From a virus, in the IMG/VR virus record IMGVR_UViG_3300028827_000100, positions 41,879 to 105,878 of that record: 64,000 nucleotides of DNA; one strand, 5' to 3'. Below are positions 1 to 56,459 of this stretch, piece after piece. The position numbers were made by a program, and so were the translations under genes. The notes under the pieces were generated by a model that saw nothing but the letters and a program-made list of their open reading frames with translations, was not told the origin of the DNA and made no database searches. Each line of letters starts with the position of its first letter. Position 1 is the stretch's first letter.

Positions 1-318
1 TTCAATGTTGATGATGTGGCAAAACTTTCCAACGTAATGAAGTCGTATCTGGAATCAATACTGAAACTCCAGAAGGAAAGGGATATATATGTAGAGGTTG
101 CGAAGGTTGTGCTGTTTACAATGGCTAACAACCTCGTTGACAGGTTGTCATCACTTGTAATGGATTTGCCGCAGGAAAGAAGGGATGCGATAGGCAAGGC
201 AATTACGGAAGAGGTAAGGGCGGCGTTAGACCATGCAAAAAATCTTGGCAGGGAAAAAATAGAGAAGCTCATGGAGAAGGTGCAGGATGAATACAACAGG
301 CTTGTCAAAAAGACATGA
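1..318 (+). CDS. 3' part of a protein preceding the terminase (possible small terminase subunit)
   Basis: The reading frame is open from the first base, so the gene begins before the window; 105 codons and the stop are visible. A GTG at base 16 could serve as a start, but it has no ribosome binding site inside the window and the frame continues upstream, so a truncated gene is more likely. The visible part is mostly helical and charged and ends in a Lys/Glu-rich helix. Its stop overlaps the start of the large terminase by 32 bases, so the two are translationally coupled. The position just before terL is usual for a small terminase subunit, but no diagnostic motif is visible. Function is inferred from position only. 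Confidence 0.55.
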   Translation, partial: FNVDDVAKLSNVMKSYLESILKLQKERDIYVEVAKVVLFTMANNLVDRLSSLVMDLPQERRDAIGKAITEEVRAALDHAKNLGREKIEKLMEKVQDEYNRLVKKT

Positions 319-2209
319 TAATATCCTGAAGATGAAACCTGTTGGCATTGACAGTTTTTGCCGTTCCATTTCACACAACAGTAAAATTGTTATTGAACTT
401 CCGTCAGATACTCCGGTTGAAGCGGACGACGACCTGTTTCTGGAAGGGCTTGCTGTCAAGGTCGCCGGAGAAAAAGAAAAGAAAGTTGTAAGTGAAGAAT
501 ATGGGAATATTATAGATTATGCGGTTAGAGCACTTGGTTTGAGAACGATATACAAGTATAAGCGGCAATATCAGGTGTTGAGAGACTTTTTCATGTTGCG
601 ATGTCCCGTCTGCAACGGAAAAGAAATGGATGTATGGAATATGACTGAAGAAGAAATTGAGAGAGAAGTGCTCATGCGACTTGACATGAAGTCTGAAAAA
701 CTTGTCTGTGACGGGTGCGGGCACACCGTTGACAGGATGAAGTACAGAGACCTTGTTCTGTGTGTTGGCATGAGAAGCGGAAAAACTGTTACAGCGGCGA
801 TAATTGCCGCATATATATTTTATCTGATTTTTGTTGTACCAAAACTTGACAGAAGGTTTCAGCTCATACCAGACCAGAGCTTGAGGGTGTCCATGGTAAG
901 TACATCTTCGTCACAGACTGAAAAGACGGTTTGGTCTGCATTTACTTCATTGCTTGAGAACGCAATAGACGAAGATATAAAAAGAATTGTCAGGAACAAT
1001 TCCAACTATGTTGAGATAGATACGAATACAAAAGAGTGGAAAGTTGAAAACATAGAGTTTATGTCACTACACTCAAACTCCGGTTCACTTGCAGGTGGTA
1101 CTGGCATACTTGCCGTGCTTGAGGAGTTTTCGAGATTTAACCTTGGCACTTCAAAGAGGAGTGCGGATGAAGTGAGAAACGTTTTGGACAGATCGCTTGC
1201 AACAACGAGGTCGGTTGCCAAAACGTATCTCGAAGACCTCTTTACATTAATGGTAGTCATAAGTTCACCCTACTATGTTGTCGACGATCCTACAATGATG
1301 CTGTTTTATGATGTGGGCGAATCGGGCGTTATCAATGTGAAATATGGCAGGCATATCAAAGGTGAACTGCTTGCATACCATTATCCAACTTGGGAATTTA
1401 ATCCATTTATAGACAGAGGGGCATCTTTCATAGAGAGGGCGTATTCTCTGGATGCGGCGGCGGCAGAAAGGGACTATGGGGCCAATCCTGTATCGTCGGC
1501 TGGTGGATTGTTTGAAAATGTTGAAAGCATTTACGAGAAAATTTTTCTGGATACAGACGACGGAATTATTTTTAATGTATATCCAAAACGAGAAGGAGAC
1601 CTTGTAGCATTAACGGCTAAAGTTGAAAGCATAAAGAATTGTTTTGCCAAAGAGTATTATGTTCACATAGACCTTGGCTTGAATCACGACCTTCTGACTA
1701 TGGTGTTTGCGAGGCCTGAAGATGGGAATGTTTATGTTGACGGCATGCTTGTTATAAAGTCTGAACACAACATAGAGGCATACATTGATACACCGATTGA
1801 AATAATAGAAAGTATTAAAGACAGGGTGAAAATAAATTATGTATCTTACGACAGATGGCAATCTGTTCCCGGCATACAGCGTTTGAAAAGGATGATGATT
1901 CCGGCTGGACTTTTCAGTGTCCGTGATGATGCGATAGTCACCTTGAAGTTTATGATGATGGCCGGAAAGGTTTACATACTTGACAACGACAAAAATGCAA
2001 CGACAATTTTGAAACACGAAATGAGAAGCGTGAGAAGGGTTAATGGAAAGTTAACTCATACAGATTTGCTTGTGTCTGTTTCCGGTGCTGTGAAGAACGC
2101 ATTTACAGGTGTTACAAAGAAAATGTATACCAAGGGCAGGAATGTCGTTTCCCATGTTACAGATTACAAAAACTTCATGCCGAGAACTGCAAAAATAGGC
2201 AGGCTTTAG
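287..2209 (+). CDS. terL: Terminase large subunit (ATPase and nuclease of DNA packaging)
   Basis: This is the packaging motor that pumps DNA through the portal and cuts it. The P-loop GMRSGKT lies at residues 161-167 and the Walker B segment ILAVLEE at 274-280. The SSPYY motif (326-330) sits where the ATPase coupling motif is expected. The C-terminal RNase H-like nuclease has candidate acidic residues D462 (HIDLG), D522 (SYDRW) and D593 (HTDLL). Two CxxC pairs (C106/C109 and C141/C144) just before the P-loop suggest a zinc-ribbon insert, which is not usual in terminases. The ATG at 287 follows GGAGAAGG at 273-280. The length of 640 residues is normal to slightly long for the family. The portal gene follows after 9 bases. 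Confidence 0.95.
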   Translation: MNTTGLSKRHDNILKMKPVGIDSFCRSISHNSKIVIELPSDTPVEADDDLFLEGLAVKVAGEKEKKVVSEEYGNIIDYAVRALGLRTIYKYKRQYQVLRDFFMLRCPVCNGKEMDVWNMTEEEIEREVLMRLDMKSEKLVCDGCGHTVDRMKYRDLVLCVGMRSGKTVTAAIIAAYIFYLIFVVPKLDRRFQLIPDQSLRVSMVSTSSSQTEKTVWSAFTSLLENAIDEDIKRIVRNNSNYVEIDTNTKEWKVENIEFMSLHSNSGSLAGGTGILAVLEEFSRFNLGTSKRSADEVRNVLDRSLATTRSVAKTYLEDLFTLMVVISSPYYVVDDPTMMLFYDVGESGVINVKYGRHIKGELLAYHYPTWEFNPFIDRGASFIERAYSLDAAAAERDYGANPVSSAGGLFENVESIYEKIFLDTDDGIIFNVYPKREGDLVALTAKVESIKNCFAKEYYVHIDLGLNHDLLTMVFARPEDGNVYVDGMLVIKSEHNIEAYIDTPIEIIESIKDRVKINYVSYDRWQSVPGIQRLKRMMIPAGLFSVRDDAIVTLKFMMMAGKVYILDNDKNATTILKHEMRSVRRVNGKLTHTDLLVSVSGAVKNAFTGVTKKMYTKGRNVVSHVTDYKNFMPRTAKIGRL

Positions 2210-44804: not shown

Positions 44805-45605
44805 ATGGAGCTGAATAAAAAATTAAGGAGTAAAATAGAGAAATATATTTATTATGAGGATGAAAATGTTTTATTGTTGCACGGGAACTCATTTGAGATA
44901 TTACCCATGTTTGATAATATTGTTTTTGAACTTGTGTTGACGGATCCACCTTATGATTTTGGGAATAGAATTTTGGGTGGTGGCTTCTATAAGTCCGGTG
45001 TGAAAGGTGGCAGAAAATATTTAAAGAAGCTAAAAAAATTGAATAGTGTCAAATTTAATCCAAAATTATTTCTGGATATGTTCAAGTATAGGCAAGGCGT
45101 CTTTTTCTGCAATAAAAAACTGTTACCAGAATATATTAAACATGTCTTGAAAAGAAAGATGTCGTATGATATACATTTTATGTGGAAGGAAAATCCAATA
45201 CCAGCAAAGAGCAATCATTTTATGAGTGATGTTGAATATATCGTTTTTATAAAATTTAAAAAGGCGTATTTCAATCAACATAATAGTATTGAGGATTATA
45301 AGAAGGTATTTAGAACTGTTAGTAAGGCAAACAATCTTCATCCGGCGGAAAAGCCAGTGGCCGTAATGGAGAAATATGTTAGAGTGTTATGTCCAGAGGG
45401 TGAAATTGTATTCGACCCATTTATTGGTTCTGGCGCTACTGCAATTGCGTCTGTATGCAATGGAAGGAAGTGTATAGGAATAGAGAAAGATAAGAAATAT
45501 CTCGATATAACAATACAAAGACTTCAAACAGTCACAAACAGTTTTCTGTCTATTGGGAAAAGTAAAAAAGGGTGGAGGCCAACCAAAAGCATGTTTGGAG
45601 CATAA
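44805..45605 (+). CDS. DNA (N4-cytosine or N6-adenine) methyltransferase
   Basis: The 266-residue protein has DPPY (47-50) near the N-terminus and FDPFIGSGATAIASVCNGRK near the C-terminus, so the order is motif IV then motif I (beta class). HPAEKPVAVMEKYVRVL between them is typical of this class. No restriction endonuclease lies next to it, so it likely protects or marks phage DNA rather than being part of a restriction system. The start follows GGGGGAGGT. Confidence 0.88.
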   Translation: MELNKKLRSKIEKYIYYEDENVLLLHGNSFEILPMFDNIVFELVLTDPPYDFGNRILGGGFYKSGVKGGRKYLKKLKKLNSVKFNPKLFLDMFKYRQGVFFCNKKLLPEYIKHVLKRKMSYDIHFMWKENPIPAKSNHFMSDVEYIVFIKFKKAYFNQHNSIEDYKKVFRTVSKANNLHPAEKPVAVMEKYVRVLCPEGEIVFDPFIGSGATAIASVCNGRKCIGIEKDKKYLDITIQRLQTVTNSFLSIGKSKKGWRPTKSMFGA

Positions 45606-47608: not shown

Positions 47609-48706
47609 ATGAAATGTGGAGAACTGCAAAAAATTCTTAAAAAGGTTAAAGTTGTGATGTCAGAGCAATCTTTGTCAAAACCTCGCATATCTTTCGATGG
47701 AAAGAGGTTGATAGCGTGTAATGGAACTGTATATATTTCGTTACCTTTTGAGGGTGATATATCATCTTGTATTGTAGATTATAAAACTATATCGTCTATA
47801 ATTAATGGCATATCACAGGTAAAGAAAATCAAGATGTACACCAAATCTGAAATGCTGATTATAAAAGCCGGTATGTCAACTTTCAAAATACCACTTGTTA
47901 CTGGCGAAGAAATTGCTACTTTCAATGCTATGGTTGACAGTATCAAGAAAAAGAAAACAGAGAAGACAATTATGATGACAGGCAGTGCATGGTCTTTACT
48001 TGATAAAATGCTCCCATATTCAGTTCCGAAATTTGGGACAATGTATCCGTCTGGCGTTTATGTTTACAAAGGAAATTTCATTACACACAATGGTGTAGTT
48101 GGAATGATTGCAGGAGCGGATGTATCAAAATCTGAAAGATTTTTTATACCGCATATTTTTTGCAAAGCAGTAATGGGCGCGTATGAAGATGAGGGTGTGC
48201 CAAGTGCAAAAATTGGCATAGGTGATGATGTGATGAGTTTTAAAAAATCGGATATAGTTATTTTGAGCACTCTTGTGAAAGATTTGAACATAAGCACGTT
48301 TGAATTGATAGGCGATATTGTAAAACATGCAAAGAAAATTTCAAAGAATGGAAAGAATGCCATACAGATAAATGATAAATTTAAAAGGGAAGTGGGCTAT
48401 ATGGATTTGGTTCTTGCGCAGGAAAGTTCGGAATATGACCGGGTTGGCACAGTTAGTATCGAAAATGGGAAAGCTGTTTTTACTGTTGATAGTGCTCAAT
48501 GCAACTATCATGGCGTGTTGAAAGTCGAAAACAAATCAGCAAAGTGGGATGCTAAATTTCATGTATCTTTGGCATTGCCACTCATAAATGATTGCAACAG
48601 GGTTACGCTCGTTAAATATGAAAAGATAAATGTTTTATATTTAAACAATGAATCTTTTGATATTGTGGTTGCGACTATCAAAGACAGGGAAGGTGAAAAA
48701 GAATGA
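47609..48706 (+). CDS. DNA polymerase sliding clamp (DnaN-like)
   Basis: The 365-residue protein is the same length as bacterial DnaN and is encoded directly before the DnaE-type polymerase, with an ATGA overlap. It has the three-part alternation of helices and strands of a beta clamp (for example MKCGELQKILKKVKVVMSEQ at the start, and FIPHIFCKAVMGAYEDEG in the second third). No single catalytic motif exists in the family, so the call rests on length, layout and context. It would tether the polymerase to DNA. Confidence 0.7.
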   Translation: MKCGELQKILKKVKVVMSEQSLSKPRISFDGKRLIACNGTVYISLPFEGDISSCIVDYKTISSIINGISQVKKIKMYTKSEMLIIKAGMSTFKIPLVTGEEIATFNAMVDSIKKKKTEKTIMMTGSAWSLLDKMLPYSVPKFGTMYPSGVYVYKGNFITHNGVVGMIAGADVSKSERFFIPHIFCKAVMGAYEDEGVPSAKIGIGDDVMSFKKSDIVILSTLVKDLNISTFELIGDIVKHAKKISKNGKNAIQINDKFKREVGYMDLVLAQESSEYDRVGTVSIENGKAVFTVDSAQCNYHGVLKVENKSAKWDAKFHVSLALPLINDCNRVTLVKYEKINVLYLNNESFDIVVATIKDREGEKE

Positions 48707-51700
48707 TACACCTCCATGTACATTCAGATTACAGTCTGCTTGATGGGTTGTGTAAAATAGACTCTCTTTTCGAGAAAGCAAAAGAGGCTGAACACGAGGC
48801 GATTGCAATAACAGACCACGGCAATCTTGATTGCTATGTTAAAGCCTTGAAAGCATCTCAAAAATACGGGGTTAAATATATACCTGCTGTTGAGATGTAT
48901 CTTGCAAACAACGTTCATAAAGTTGAGCCGAAAGAAAAATACAGGCATTTATGCCTGTACGCCCTTAACATGGATGGGTTGTCAGAGCTGTTCAGAATAC
49001 TTGGGTATGCAAATCAGAAGTTTGTAAGAAAGCCTATTGTGGATATTGATACTTTAACAAAAGATTTTGACCTTACAAACATTGCCGTGAGCACGGCGTG
49101 TTTGTATGGTATATTGTCGTATAACAACTGTGAAGAACAGATAGAAAAACTCATTGATGCCACAGACAATCTGTTTATTGAAATAATGCCGCACAACATT
49201 GATGAACAGGTACAAATGAACGAAAGGGCTGTTTTTGTAGCGGAAGACTACAACCTTCCGCTAATAGCAACTAATGATGTTCATTATATAGAAGCAGAGC
49301 ACGTGAACAGTCACGATGTTTTGCTTGCAATAAACACAAACAGAAAAGTAAATGACAAGGACAGGTTCAGGTTCAAGATACGTTCATTATATTACTGTAC
49401 TGAAGATGAGATGCTGAAGATGTTTAGAAAACAAAAATCAGTCAGGATTGCAACTGCTGTTAAAGCCATTGATAATACCAATCGCCTGTGTGAACTTGTT
49501 GATTTTAAATCTTTTGGTGGATATGGTGTAGAGTTAAATGTTTCAGGGTATAAGAGAAAGAATTTTATGCGTCTGATAGAGATGAGATTCAGAAACATTC
49601 TCAAGAAAATTCCTGCGCACAAAAAAGAGATTTACAGGGAAAGACTAAAAAAGGAGCTTGATTTGATTGTAAGAAAAAAATTTGATACGTATTTTTACGT
49701 TGTTTATGACATTATAAAATATGCAAGAAACAATGGAATTTATGTGGGATGCGGTCGTGGAAGCGTTGGCGGGTCACTACTTGCATATGTACTTGGAATA
49801 ACAACGGTTGACCCTATTAAATTTGGCCTGTCCTTTGAAAGGTTTATTGCAGAAGACAGAATAGATTTGCCGGATATAGATATGGATTTTGAAGATAGAA
49901 AGAGAGATATTGTTATACAGTATATATCTGAAAAATATGGAAGGGATGGGACGTGTAACATTTCAACATTCGGTCAGTTGAAACCGAAAGGTGTTATAAG
50001 GGATGTGGCAAGAATACATGACGTTTCACGCAAAGACATAGACATGGTTTCAAAAAATCTTATCAAGGTTTCAGATGACGACAACGTTGAAAAACTTGCA
50101 GAGGAGAATGAAGTTGTTGCAGATTTTTTCATGAAATACCCGGAGCTACTTGAACATTCAAAGAATCTCGAAAACGTCATTCGCAATTCCGGTGTTCATG
50201 CCGCTGGGATAGTTGTGTGCGAACAGGACATAAATGAAACGGGGAGGGGGTATCTTGTAAAGAGAAACAATAAGTATGTGTTAAACTGGGATAAAGATGA
50301 TGCAGAGTATATGGGCTTTATCAAATATGATATTCTTGGCCTTAATACTTTAACGGTTATTTCTGAATGTATAAGGCTTATAGAGGAGAGGCATGGTGAA
50401 TTTGTAGACGTATACAGTTTGCCCCTGAATGACAGGAAAACTCTCTCTCTTTTTGAGAAGGGTGATACTACTGGAGTATTCCAGTTTTCATCGGGTGGAA
50501 TGAAACAGCTTTTAAAGAATTTTGGCATAGATAAGTTTCACGACCTATGCGTTATCAATGCGTTATACAGGCCCGGTACTCTTGGCGGGGGTATTCACGA
50601 AAAATATATTTCAGTAAAACGTGGTGAGGATGAACCTAATTTTTATGGCTCTGAAGCATACAGAAGGGTAACAAAGAATACTTATGGATTCATTATTTAT
50701 CAGGAACAGTTACTAAAAGTTTTTACCGAATTTGGATTTACATATTCGGAAGCAGATAAGATAAGAAAGATATGCTCTAAAAAGAAGGGTAAAAGTGAAA
50801 TAGTTAAATACAAGAAAAGGTTTGTAGAGTATGCAGTAAAAAATGCTGGTATGAAAAAGAGTGATGCATCGGACTTATTTGATACTCTCGAAAATTTTGC
50901 CGAATATGCGTTTAACCTTGCCCATGCAACGGAATATGCAATGATAGGATACTGGACTGCATATTTAAAATGTCATTATTACGATGAGTATATGCAGTCT
51001 CTTTTGACATATGGCAGTGAACACAACAGGCAGGAATATATAGATGAATTAATGAGCAGGGGATACAAATTTAGAAATGTGAATATAAACAGGTCAAGTG
51101 CTATAGATTGGGTTGTTTTGGATGGAGAAGTTTATCTTCCCTTTATTTCAATCCTTGGAATAGGGGAAAAGGCCGCCCGTGTTCTTGAGCAAGCGAGAAA
51201 TCTGCATGGAGAAATCAGTACGCCGGAACAACTCTTTCAGGTTGTCCCGGACAGAAAAGCGGTAAATAAAAGGATTGTGAATTTGCTTATTGATGCAGGT
51301 GCTTTTGATGACAATTCTAAAATAAAAAAGGAAATGCTCAAAGTAAAAATAACATTTGCAGAAGAAGTGCTTGATTTATACAGGAGATGGTTGTCTTCGA
51401 ACAATGCGGGTCTTGTTAAGGTGCAAAAGAAACTCAAAGATGGGAAGAAAGTGATAGTTAATTTTGTAGAGGACGATTTGAATGAGAATGTTTTTGTGAA
51501 TGTCAAACACGATACTTATGCCTCTATTGCAGAAGGTGATTTGTATTATGCCGGTTTTTCTGGTAAAAACATGCTTGGCATTGCTACAACAGAACAAATG
51601 CGCAAGCTCGAACTTGATTCTACCGGAGCGAATATACAGGTTATATCAGGAATTGAAGATGCAAGTGTGGTCAGAAGAAAGATTAAGAAATGTTCAAGGT

Positions 51701-52224
51701 GTCAATTGAGAAGTGAGTGTAGAGAGCCTGTGGCAGGTGAATACAACAGTAATATTCTGCTTGTGGGGGAGGCTCCGGGGAGAGATGAGGACAGGTATGG
51801 AAAGCCGTTTGTCGGGAAAGCCGGACAATTGCTGTTTAAAGTTCTTGGGAAATATGGTGTAGAAAGGTCAGATGTGAGCATAATAAATACGGTTAAGTGT
51901 TGGCCGTCAAAAACAAAAACGCCAGACAGTGAACACGTGAAAGCATGTAAAAGCCACTTTGTAAGGGAAATAAAACATATAGAGCCGGTTATAATTTTAT
52001 CTCTTGGCTCTATCGCATCAAAAGTTTTAAGTGACAACGATTCATTCAAGATAACTGAAAACGCTGGCACTTGTGAATATAATGACAAGATAGGGGCATG
52101 GGTTATGTATTGTCTTCACCCTTCCCATGTATTGAGGGGATATGAAAAGGACAGGGTAAAGTTGTTTACAGAGACTATAAGGTCTTTTGTTGAGAAAATA
52201 ATATTTTTAAATGGAGGCGAATAA
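48703..52224 (+). CDS. DnaE-type DNA polymerase III alpha fused to a family-4 uracil-DNA glycosylase
   Basis: The 1173-residue protein has an N-terminal PHP domain (HLHVHSDYSLLDG, ITDHGN, PAVEMY, TACLYG, NDVHY) whose metal ligands look intact. The polymerase core follows with GRGSVGGS (351-358) and the catalytic Asp D391/D393 (LPDIDMDF) and D543 (KYDILGLN). A helix-hairpin-helix (ILGIGEKAARVLE) lies near 817. After about residue 870 the usual OB and tau-binding domains are replaced by a short region and a C-terminal UDG domain: CSRCQL (C997, C1000), GEAPGRDEDRYGKPFVGKAG (1022-1041), NTVKC (C1066), C1082 and LHPSHVL (H1139). These match family-4 UDGs with a 4Fe-4S cluster. It would replicate the genome and excise uracil from it. 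No separate proofreading exonuclease was seen. Confidence 0.93.
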   Translation: MIHLHVHSDYSLLDGLCKIDSLFEKAKEAEHEAIAITDHGNLDCYVKALKASQKYGVKYIPAVEMYLANNVHKVEPKEKYRHLCLYALNMDGLSELFRILGYANQKFVRKPIVDIDTLTKDFDLTNIAVSTACLYGILSYNNCEEQIEKLIDATDNLFIEIMPHNIDEQVQMNERAVFVAEDYNLPLIATNDVHYIEAEHVNSHDVLLAINTNRKVNDKDRFRFKIRSLYYCTEDEMLKMFRKQKSVRIATAVKAIDNTNRLCELVDFKSFGGYGVELNVSGYKRKNFMRLIEMRFRNILKKIPAHKKEIYRERLKKELDLIVRKKFDTYFYVVYDIIKYARNNGIYVGCGRGSVGGSLLAYVLGITTVDPIKFGLSFERFIAEDRIDLPDIDMDFEDRKRDIVIQYISEKYGRDGTCNISTFGQLKPKGVIRDVARIHDVSRKDIDMVSKNLIKVSDDDNVEKLAEENEVVADFFMKYPELLEHSKNLENVIRNSGVHAAGIVVCEQDINETGRGYLVKRNNKYVLNWDKDDAEYMGFIKYDILGLNTLTVISECIRLIEERHGEFVDVYSLPLNDRKTLSLFEKGDTTGVFQFSSGGMKQLLKNFGIDKFHDLCVINALYRPGTLGGGIHEKYISVKRGEDEPNFYGSEAYRRVTKNTYGFIIYQEQLLKVFTEFGFTYSEADKIRKICSKKKGKSEIVKYKKRFVEYAVKNAGMKKSDASDLFDTLENFAEYAFNLAHATEYAMIGYWTAYLKCHYYDEYMQSLLTYGSEHNRQEYIDELMSRGYKFRNVNINRSSAIDWVVLDGEVYLPFISILGIGEKAARVLEQARNLHGEISTPEQLFQVVPDRKAVNKRIVNLLIDAGAFDDNSKIKKEMLKVKITFAEEVLDLYRRWLSSNNAGLVKVQKKLKDGKKVIVNFVEDDLNENVFVNVKHDTYASIAEGDLYYAGFSGKNMLGIATTEQMRKLELDSTGANIQVISGIEDASVVRRKIKKCSRCQLRSECREPVAGEYNSNILLVGEAPGRDEDRYGKPFVGKAGQLLFKVLGKYGVERSDVSIINTVKCWPSKTKTPDSEHVKACKSHFVREIKHIEPVIILSLGSIASKVLSDNDSFKITENAGTCEYNDKIGAWVMYCLHPSHVLRGYEKDRVKLFTETIRSFVEKIIFLNGGE

Positions 52225-53171
52225 TGTTTCATACTAAATACAGACCAAAAAATCTCCTTCAGTTTTATGGTAATGAAGAAGTTGTATCGGCAATAAAATT
52301 GATGCTGAAAGACGAAATCAAGCCGTATGCTTTTCTTATCACGGGTGAAAAGGGGACTGGGAAAACAACACTTGCAAGAATAATAGCAAAGAAACTTGGT
52401 GCAAGTGATTTAAGTTTGACGGAATTAAACTCTGCCGATATGAGAGGTATAGATACTTCAAGAGAAATAATAAATACATCTGCATATTCAACTTTTTTCG
52501 GCGATGTCAGGGTATATATATTTGACGAAGCTCATTCACAAACAAGGGAGGCGCAGGAAGCATTATTGAAATTACTTGAGTCGCCACCACGGAGAACACA
52601 CTACATTTTTTGCACAACAAATCCAGAAAAAATGCTTGATACTCTCAAGAGGAGATGCGTTCATTATCATTTAAAACCTCTCTCTTTCGATGAAAGAAAA
52701 AGGTTGTTTGATACTGTTGCTAAAAAGGAAAAGATAGAATATGACGATGATGTAAGAGAGCTTATTGTGGAAGAATCTCTTGGCAATCCTTCAATGTTGT
52801 TGTTGTATATGTATGAGTGTAGGGGATTAACGTATGAACAGGCCAGAAGTGTTATCAGGAGTCACGTGGACGATACAGACGAAGACATTATAGAACTTTG
52901 CAGAATGTTTCTGAAACCTCAAAGGATGAAGTGGAGTAAAATCATATCTGCTATTGACGCTATTCTTGAGAGGGTTTCGGCTGAAACGTTAAGGTTGACT
53001 ATGTATAGCTATTACACTACCATGTTAAAAAAAGCGAAAACTGACGAAGACATTTTATTTTCAATAGCCATACTTGAAGAAATTGACAGCCCGGTTTACG
53101 ACAATGCTAATGGGAATAGAAGGATTATATATATGCTTGCCCGTGTTTATGCCACATTGAAAGGTCTATAA
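52224..53171 (+). CDS. Clamp loader ATPase (DnaX/RFC-like)
   Basis: The 315-residue AAA+ protein has Walker A GEKGTGKT (41-48), DEAH (101-104) and a TTNPEKML segment. RRC (143-145) stands at the place of the SRC arginine finger. It lacks the zinc-binding cysteines of bacterial DnaX. It overlaps the polymerase stop as TAATG and loads the clamp onto primed DNA. I see no delta or delta-prime gene in the window, so it may form a homo-oligomer, or the partners may be elsewhere. Confidence 0.88.
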   Translation: MFHTKYRPKNLLQFYGNEEVVSAIKLMLKDEIKPYAFLITGEKGTGKTTLARIIAKKLGASDLSLTELNSADMRGIDTSREIINTSAYSTFFGDVRVYIFDEAHSQTREAQEALLKLLESPPRRTHYIFCTTNPEKMLDTLKRRCVHYHLKPLSFDERKRLFDTVAKKEKIEYDDDVRELIVEESLGNPSMLLLYMYECRGLTYEQARSVIRSHVDDTDEDIIELCRMFLKPQRMKWSKIISAIDAILERVSAETLRLTMYSYYTTMLKKAKTDEDILFSIAILEEIDSPVYDNANGNRRIIYMLARVYATLKGL

Positions 53172-53844: not shown

Positions 53845-54657
53845 GTGAAAAAGTTAAAGAAGTTCAAAAAGCCAAGCGGGAAGAAGAAATCCCTGAAGGC
53901 AGGCAGGAAATTCAAGTTTGCCACTGCCGATGCTATTAAGAAAAGAATAGAGAATATCGGCAAGGGGCGGTGGGCAACGTATCTGTCGGATACATATGAC
54001 AGGTACAAAATCAAACAGGGAGACAATTTCATTAGATTGCTCCCTTTGATTTTGCCTGAAGATGTCGAAGGCGATTTTGCCTATGACATTTATGTCCACA
54101 GCCGTCTCGGTGCAAACAGCGATTCTTTTGTGTGTGTGGAACAGATGTGGAATGACACTTGTGAGCTGTGTCATCTCCACAGAGTGGCCGCAAGAGAAGG
54201 GGATGAAGAGATGGCGTCAGAGTTACGGCCATACAGACGTTCAATAGGCCTGTGTCTTGATGTCCACCCTAAAAGAGATTTGCGGCAGTCAGACGATATA
54301 CTTGTCATTGACATGCCCGCATCTCTTGCGGATGAGATAGCAAGGCATGCGGTCTCAAAAGAGACAGGGGCCATTATCCCGCTGAACGACCCGGACAAAG
54401 GTCGAGTGGTCATTTTCGAGTATATTAAGGGGAAGACAAAATATGGAAGTTACGGCGGCGTCCAGGTTGGCCGAAAGTTCCCCGTGGACGATGATATACT
54501 CGATGCTATTGTCCCGGTTGAGGACGTTATAGCAATGCCTGACGAAAAGGTTTTGCAGAACGTCCTTGACTATTACGAGAGGGACGGAAGCGACGATAGA
54601 GATGGAAATGATTTCGCCCATGAGGGCGACTATTATGAAGAAGAAGAGGAGGAGTAA
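53845..54657 (+). CDS. Single-stranded DNA-binding protein candidate (gp32-like)
   Basis: The 270-residue protein starts at GTG, behind AAGGGGGTGAG. It has a basic N-terminus (KKLKKFKKPSGKKKSLKAGR), a core with the segment CVEQMWNDTCELCHLHR (residues about 92-108, a possible zinc site as in T4 gp32) and an acidic tail (DYYEEEEEE) like those through which SSBs bind partners. The gene order with UvsY-like, UvsX-like and gp46/47-like genes agrees. The next gene begins directly after its stop. Confidence 0.6.
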   Translation: MKKLKKFKKPSGKKKSLKAGRKFKFATADAIKKRIENIGKGRWATYLSDTYDRYKIKQGDNFIRLLPLILPEDVEGDFAYDIYVHSRLGANSDSFVCVEQMWNDTCELCHLHRVAAREGDEEMASELRPYRRSIGLCLDVHPKRDLRQSDDILVIDMPASLADEIARHAVSKETGAIIPLNDPDKGRVVIFEYIKGKTKYGSYGGVQVGRKFPVDDDILDAIVPVEDVIAMPDEKVLQNVLDYYERDGSDDRDGNDFAHEGDYYEEEEEE

Positions 54658-55388: not shown

Positions 55389-56459
55389 ATGCCAAAAAAA
55401 ACACTGTCAACTATAGCAACTATAGGCGAATCACTCTCATCGGTTATACAGGCATCAAAAAACATTAACTGTATTCCGACTGGATGCACGCTATTAGACC
55501 TTGCTCTTGCGGCAGAAAGCAACAATGGCTACAGCGGCATTGTAGAGGGCAGGATAACAAATATATTTGGTGATGAAAGTTCAGGGAAAACACTTTTATC
55601 CCTATCTATAGGTGGGCAACTTCAGCTTATAGATGGGACTGCAAGAGTATATATAGATGATGTTGAGAACGCCCTCGACGTTGTTTGGGCAATAGAGTGT
55701 TTCGGACTTGACCCGGACAGAACATTTCTTCTCAACAGTGATACTGTTGAGTCTATGGAAAAGAATGTCACTCTTGTGTGTGAGTCTGCAAAGAAAGACA
55801 GAGTGAAAGCACTATATATTCTTGACAGTCTCGATGCTCTTACAACGCAAATGGAGAAAGATGACCTTGCAAAGAGGGTCAGGGGTAAAACTACTTCGGA
55901 CGAAGATATTGAACAAAGAAACATGAGGATAAAACTGGAAAAGTCAAACCTTATGTCTTCATTCTACAATAGTATGAAAAAGAAATTGCCACAGAGCGGC
56001 GTTACTCTGATAGTTATCTCTCAAGTTCGTACCAACTTGAGAAAAGTTTTTGGAGACAAGGATGACATTGCTGGGGGGAACGCAACGAAGTTCTATTCGA
56101 CCCACAGAATTAAAATCGTAAAGACGGGGACTATATATCAGCAGGTGGCTTCAAGGAAGAGGGCTATTGGAGTAAAGACAAAAGCAAAGATAATAAAAAA
56201 CAAGGTTCAGGAGCCATATCACGAAGCGGAATTTCCCATATACTTCAACAAAGGGATTGATGATATAGAAGCCTGTGTTGATTTCCTTATGTCAATGAAA
56301 GAAGTTAATCCTAAAGCGATAAAGTGGTATGGTAGAACATACAAGTCCAAAAAGGACTTCATCCTTTCTATAAAGGAAAACGGAAACAGGATGAAAAGGG
56401 TGAAGGACAAGGTAAGGAAAACATGGTTTGAAAAAATAAAAATAAAGGTAGGTGAATAA
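55389..56459 (+). CDS. RecA/UvsX-like recombinase
   Basis: The 356-residue protein forms filaments on ssDNA and exchanges strands. Walker A GDESSGKT is at 61-68, Walker B-like ALYILDSLD at about 142-150, and the L2-region segment ISQVRTNLRKVFGDKDDIAG followed by GGNATKFYSTHRIKI has the RecA signature. The sequence before the P-loop (INCIPTGCTLLDLAL) is also typical. It lies right after a terminator, so it begins a new unit; its promoter may be the read-through transcript or lie within the upstream gene. The sbcD-like gene follows. Confidence 0.92.
   Translation: MPKKTLSTIATIGESLSSVIQASKNINCIPTGCTLLDLALAAESNNGYSGIVEGRITNIFGDESSGKTLLSLSIGGQLQLIDGTARVYIDDVENALDVVWAIECFGLDPDRTFLLNSDTVESMEKNVTLVCESAKKDRVKALYILDSLDALTTQMEKDDLAKRVRGKTTSDEDIEQRNMRIKLEKSNLMSSFYNSMKKKLPQSGVTLIVISQVRTNLRKVFGDKDDIAGGNATKFYSTHRIKIVKTGTIYQQVASRKRAIGVKTKAKIIKNKVQEPYHEAEFPIYFNKGIDDIEACVDFLMSMKEVNPKAIKWYGRTYKSKKDFILSIKENGNRMKRVKDKVRKTWFEKIKIKVGE

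Follow-up and report, generated by a model that had tools for sequence, protein, structure and literature searches.

The fusion gene and its setting

The window (the whole 64,000-nucleotide stretch analysed here, from IMG/VR virus record IMGVR_UViG_3300028827_000100) contains a gene for a DnaE-type polymerase joined to a family-4 uracil-DNA glycosylase (UDG), and this gene sits in a phage replication module (Table 1). At its start the fusion gene overlaps the stop codon of the upstream clamp-like gene, and a clamp loader gene lies near the fusion gene in 24 of 63 loci, many of which are cut by contig ends. Because the gene is placed between those for a clamp and a clamp loader, with single-strand DNA-binding protein (SSB) and RecA genes downstream, its product is very probably the replicase, in keeping with the phage-replisome setting proposed in a first-pass annotation of the sequence.

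Table 1. Genes of the replication module and domains of the fusion protein, in window coordinates; neighbour counts are over 63 loci, many of them cut by contig ends.
Feature	Coordinates	Strand	Evidence or remark
Sliding-clamp-like gene	47609..48706	+	PHROG processivity factor, E 7e-8; no Pfam match
DnaE-UDG fusion gene	48703..52224	+	ATG start, 1173 aa, without internal stop
PHP domain, residues 3-160	48709..49182	+	Pfam 9e-27
Polymerase palm/thumb (DNA_pol3_alpha), residues 296-546, with D391, D393, D543	49588..50340	+	Pfam 9e-76
Pol III alpha fingers, residues 549-714	50347..50844	+	Pfam 2e-42
Helix-hairpin-helix (HHH_6), residues 788-873	51064..51321	+	Pfam 1e-10
Linker, residues 875-982	51325..51648	+	Beta-rich; model low-confidence
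Family-4 UDG domain, ~residues 990-1169	51670..52209	+	Pfam UDG 1012-1160 (5e-27), NCBIfam, and fold
Clamp loader gene	52224..53171	+	ATG overlaps fusion gene stop
SSB-like gene	53845..54657	+	Downstream in 52/63 relatives
RecA/UvsX-like recombinase gene	55389..56459	+	Downstream in 39/63 relatives

The first-pass annotation had described one open frame with an intact PHP-polymerase core followed by a complete 4Fe-4S UDG, and both parts were recovered as described, down to the individual residues. The product has the composition of a C-family polymerase, with an N-terminal PHP domain, a palm with three catalytic aspartates (D391, D393, and D543, invariant across 28/28 aligned fused proteins), fingers, and a helix-hairpin-helix (HhH) region, and its match to the TIGR00594 superfamily model of NCBIfam is above the cut-off. 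Its C-terminal part carries the sequence hallmarks of a family-4 UDG, namely four 4Fe-4S cysteines (C997, C1000, C1066, and C1082), a motif A of the form GE(A/G)PG (GEAPGRDED, residues 1022-1030), and a motif B of the form HP(S/A) (HPSHV, residues 1139-1143); the family-4 models of NCBIfam match here (7e-38 and 9e-33), with whole-protein scores below the curated cut-offs for the free-standing enzyme. An AlphaFold model of the fusion protein, from an alignment of 25 proteins, has a mean pLDDT of 82.8, with the polymerase and UDG parts confident and only residues 875-982 at pLDDT <50. By Foldseek, the modelled polymerase core resembles Taq Pol III alpha (2hpi; E 5e-63) and the C-terminal domain resembles Thermotoga maritima UDG (1vk2; TM 0.84, rmsd 1.9). 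The latter enzyme and that of Thermus thermophilus (1ui0) share the fold, the four cysteines, and the GEGPG/GEAPG and HPS/HPA motifs with the window protein, but each is a protein of its own with no polymerase attached. GC3 is even over the join (0.35 in the polymerase, 0.33 in the linker, and 0.37 in the UDG), and the composition of the fusion gene gave no gene-transfer signal.

The PHP domain of the window protein has all nine metal ligands (H5, H7, D14, H39, E64, H82, C133, D192, and H194), the last two being encoded at 49276-49284, beyond the Pfam boundary of the domain. The nine-ligand set makes the PHP domain of M. tuberculosis DnaE1 an active proofreading exonuclease (PMC5636811).

We note that the UDG domain includes an extra cysteine, C1006 (window 51718-51720), which is nearly invariant in the fused UDGs. 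Membership of the UdgX group was rejected, as the alignment to UdgX has a gap at the KRRIH loop that bears the attacking His109.

The linker and the C-terminal domains

An OB domain and a tau-binding C-terminal domain (CTD) are usual in DnaE polymerases, the CTD being the part that binds tau in bacteria, and they are absent in some known groups. The first-pass annotation placed the UDG in the position of both. This holds for the CTD and is only partly safe for the OB domain, since the window protein has a beta-rich stretch at residues 875-985 and a probable OB domain is still found ahead of the UDG in about 30 relatives. The linker of about 30 fused relatives is long (158-195 aa in nearly all) and that of 39 is <110 aa; the window protein, with 120 aa, is intermediate, and the nickie/RHEph10/ANB28/Acinetobacter group has 50-59 aa. 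In an hhalign profile comparison, the long linkers align with the OB region found in conventional phage DnaEs (probability 95), and in the modelled tail of one relative, L028 (pLDDT 89.9), the strands ahead of the UDG follow one another as in an OB fold. It is this profile comparison and strand order that the OB assignment draws on, a Foldseek search with the relative's C-terminal model having been swamped by UDG matches. We infer that the UDG first displaced the CTD and that some lines then went on to lose the OB domain. The window protein has at most a reduced OB domain, and its residues 875-982 are possibly a remnant of the one kept by the long-linker relatives.

Distribution, origin, and published relatives

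Among 80 viral loci with similarity to the whole protein, 28 besides the window's own have a UDG at the polymerase C terminus, and when 80 viral loci were scanned for UDG tails, 55 fused ORFs and several fragments came up; the same architecture occurs in more than 60 independent viral contigs. No DnaE-UDG fusion in a cellular genome was present among the 82 UDG ORFs from bacteria and archaea listed as nearest. The main alignment comprised 64 viral rows (window included) after duplicate removal, plus six cultured representatives. The first-pass annotation had allowed that two genes might have been joined in assembly, and the architecture search in other contigs showed otherwise: with the join shared by these contigs and by cultured phages, an open frame, uniform GC3, and a conserved gene order, we regard it as extremely improbable that the ORF is an assembly join or a functionless one-off fusion.

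In the UDG tree, a branch with 99% SH-aLRT support sets every UDG that is joined to DnaE apart from those that are cellular, free viral, or joined to PolA, and two loci labelled otherwise on the DnaE-joined side (L099 and L105) are DnaE-UDG genes with broken frames. At L099:1835-5528, L063:5980-9512, and L105:321-3669, the frame changes between the DnaE and the UDG part, reflecting frameshifts, sequence errors, or natural gene splits. In the DnaE tree, a 99% branch divides conventional DnaEs from the fused enzymes together with one nested clade of short phage DnaEs (L009, L012, L014, L016, L020, L021, L024-L026, and L029), which are ~900 aa long and stop right after the HhH region. No UDG ORF was detected within the fetched flanks of this clade, and its members have probably lost both the OB domain and the UDG. 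The window protein occupies a long isolated branch, weakly beside the cultured group (80%). Both trees, which come from quick searches and have weak deeper branches, fit one ancient fusion followed by one probable loss of the UDG, and this is the simplest reading.

Several relatives have interrupted polymerase genes. Inserts near DnaE residue 740 are present in L041:1540-6102 and L045:5968-10503, with L039, L117, and L161 interrupted at roughly the same position; those of L041 and L045 match intein splicing domains in Pfam, L045 also giving an HNH endonuclease match. Large insertions near residue 495 in L072 and L076, and DnaE genes in two ORFs ~0.8 kb apart in L068 and L078, are possibly inteins or introns. 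Two candidates were discarded: a Salmonella Infantis match (H12) is an ordinary chromosomal dnaE without UDG that had been misplaced in the phage set, and Moorella phage MTATph1 has a conventional DnaE with OB domain and a separate UDG gene, not a fusion.

The suggestion in the first-pass annotation that the combination of DnaE with a UDG is new did not survive, since cultured phages have it and Timinskas et al. (NAR 42:1393, published 2013; PMC3919608) described a DnaEX variant with OB domain and CTD replaced by a UDG (PF03167), which they reported from Yersinia pestis and Salmonella enterica strains as an additional bacterial polymerase. Like that variant, the window protein consists of a C-family core and then an archaeal-type UDG in place of the C-terminal domains, without canonical OB or CTD. 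The SSU5 type of phage-plasmid includes pMT1 of Y. pestis and pHCM2 of Salmonella (PMC12977533), and we infer that the sequences of 2013 stem from such elements (pMT1 and SSU5_pHCM2 types). The domain layout is common to SSU5, Cyrano, Pseudomonas phage nickie, Rhizobium phage RHEph10, Stenotrophomonas phage ANB28, and Acinetobacter phage-plasmids, and the GenBank record of RHEph10 already mentions a UDG-like domain. The polymerases of RHEph10, nickie, ANB28, and the Acinetobacter AB-type phage-plasmid resemble the window protein in domain order and in having replication genes, for instance that for SSB, nearby, and the nickie and Acinetobacter proteins are ~25-29% identical to it over the full length. 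SSU5, with a Pfam UDG score under the curated cut-off, is assigned to the fused family because of its full-length similarity to the Acinetobacter protein.

The first-pass annotation was also right to treat the joins of UDGs with A-family polymerases as a separate kind. Those of Pseudomonas phage PaBG and Thermus phage phiLo (PDB 9qhs) likewise combine a phage replicase with a family-4-like UDG, but the polymerase is of another family, the UDG is N-terminal in these examples, and they fall on the opposite side of the 99% branch of the UDG tree; Pfam finds no DNA_pol_A domain in the window protein. We note that L136 and L141 encode A-family polymerases with an N-terminal UDG and a 3'-5' exonuclease, a separate polymerase-UDG join.

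What looks new is a split within the fused family between intact and decayed members, which is apparently undescribed. Counting the window protein, the PHP domain is complete in 52 uncultivated proteins; the nine PHP ligands are kept in 52/52 of them, and the motif A Glu, the motif B His, and the four cysteines in 46/52. Key UDG residues are gone from seven uncultivated relatives with the domain still there, and the six of these that have a complete PHP domain retain all nine ligands. Loci in which UDG catalytic residues are missing from a retained domain include L007, L011, L041, L071, and L147. The cultured set (the phages or phage-plasmids SSU5, Cyrano, RHEph10, nickie, and ANB28, and an Acinetobacter plasmid) has lost the zinc ligands of PHP as well as the catalytic motifs of the UDG in 6/6 cases; in SSU5, Cyrano, RHEph10, and ANB28 the Fe-S cysteines are also absent in the alignment, so that SSU5 differs from the window protein in all of these features. 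Judged by these residues, the cultured members probably have neither nuclease nor glycosylase activity, and the intact form is seen so far only as uncultivated sequence. Literature searches on DnaE and UDG in phages, covering open-licence papers, returned no paper describing the intact group, and a 2026 NAR survey mentions neither uracil nor UDG.

Possible roles of the joined glycosylase

On balance, we favor the reading that the window protein is the main DnaE-type replicase of the phage, very probably with PHP proofreading, and that it carries a working family-4 UDG on a flexible linker that replaces the CTD. The direct observations behind it are the architecture, the residue conservation, the predicted folds, the gene order, and the recurrence of the fusion in the other viral contigs; polymerase, PHP exonuclease, and UDG activities would be expected from the families to which the domains belong. 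The tether would keep the glycosylase at the fork, where uracil from cytosine deamination or dUTP incorporation could be removed beside the replisome, and such tethered excision is the most likely role. The UDG domain of the fusion protein is the only one in the phage record, and profiles for dUTPase, dCMP deaminase, ThyX, and AP endonuclease gave no match in that record, which is classed as linear and may be incomplete. As the assembled phage lacks a recognised dUTPase, dCMP deaminase, second UDG, and dedicated AP endonuclease, the later repair steps would have to fall to host enzymes or to the protein's own PHP site. Some points weigh against a role in excision. Where the template is single-stranded at the fork, excision of uracil would put an abasic block in its place, and the low-confidence linker model does not fix the placement of the UDG relative to the DNA. 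Furthermore, because the UDG residues are lost in seven uncultivated and six cultured members while the domain stays, excision is not essential to the architecture.

These losses are better explained if the main reason for keeping the UDG is to hold DNA or dock proteins, with excision secondary or dispensable, and the persistence of the domain without its catalytic residues in the cultured group and in the five uncultivated loci named above favors such a role. There is precedent in vaccinia D4, a UDG that forms part of the viral polymerase processivity factor (PMC10253040). The D4-A20-E9 holoenzyme resembles the window protein in that a UDG is held at a viral replicase, but it does so via a bridging protein and with a B-family polymerase, and is not homologous as a system. 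We nonetheless consider a mainly structural UDG rather unlikely for the window protein, which, like most of its uncultivated relatives, keeps motif A, motif B, and the four cysteines, none of which a pure scaffold needs; moreover, the flanking clamp and clamp loader genes indicate that another processivity factor is present.

A third possibility is a base-excision-repair replicase in a single chain, in which the UDG would make an abasic site, an endonuclease IV-like PHP domain would incise it, and the polymerase would refill and proofread. It would be found across many uncultivated phages, with the SSU5/nickie group as a branch that lacks nuclease and glycosylase and has kept the shell. The PHP site of DnaE1 does resemble endonuclease IV (PMC5636811), and in PolX, whose PHP domain is related, this domain acts as an AP endonuclease, more strongly on single-stranded DNA (PMC6616362). 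The failure to find a dedicated AP endonuclease in the phage record also speaks for this scheme, with the reservation that the record, classed as linear, may be incomplete, and so does the joint loss of PHP ligands and UDG residues in the cultured group, although that loss is confined to one clade and represents one event. All nine ligands persist in the six UDG-residue losers whose PHP domain is complete, a pattern that retention of PHP for proofreading alone would predict. We know of no demonstration of AP-endonuclease activity in a DnaE PHP domain, and consider the scheme quite unlikely; if true, uracil removal, abasic-site incision, resynthesis, and proofreading would be united in one phage protein.

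The first-pass annotation had connected uracil removal with a need at high temperature. The idea is plausible but weak. The window proteins have an IVYWREL index (~59-66) that is high beside those of mesophilic phage polymerases (49 for a Moorella phage polymerase and 15 for nickie are the values compared), while the median of the fused family is only 34; the fusion is thus not specific to thermophiles. Heat may suit the window phage, but it does not explain the fusion.

If the tethered UDG is active, uracil repair would be physically wired into a C-family replisome, and poxvirus D4, the A-family phage joins, and the C-family join would be independent UDG-replicase links that point to a shared pressure. 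With intact and decayed members, the family offers a direct test of an excising versus a DNA-holding role for a replisome UDG. A polymerase that also removes uracil, and is possibly heat-stable, could serve as a reagent. We note that annotation gives DnaE-UDG proteins no more than the name 'DNA polymerase III alpha'.

Other genes of the phage were also noted. The large terminase (window 287-2209) is only ~25% identical to its nearest relatives, those of Rctr197k, Motura, and PaBG. Of these, PaBG has a published A-family polymerase with a UDG domain, and in Rctr197k a UDG match falls under a gene resembling polA; the window phage and PaBG/Rctr197k thus have related packaging genes and different replicases, with a UDG join in both. 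A gene for S-adenosylmethionine decarboxylase (SpeD; Pfam E 4e-29) lies before the window at L247:11373-11759 (G000:C1:31373-31759), and the phage record includes three N6/N4 DNA methyltransferase genes (L246:776-1942, L246:8113-9600, and window 44805-45605).
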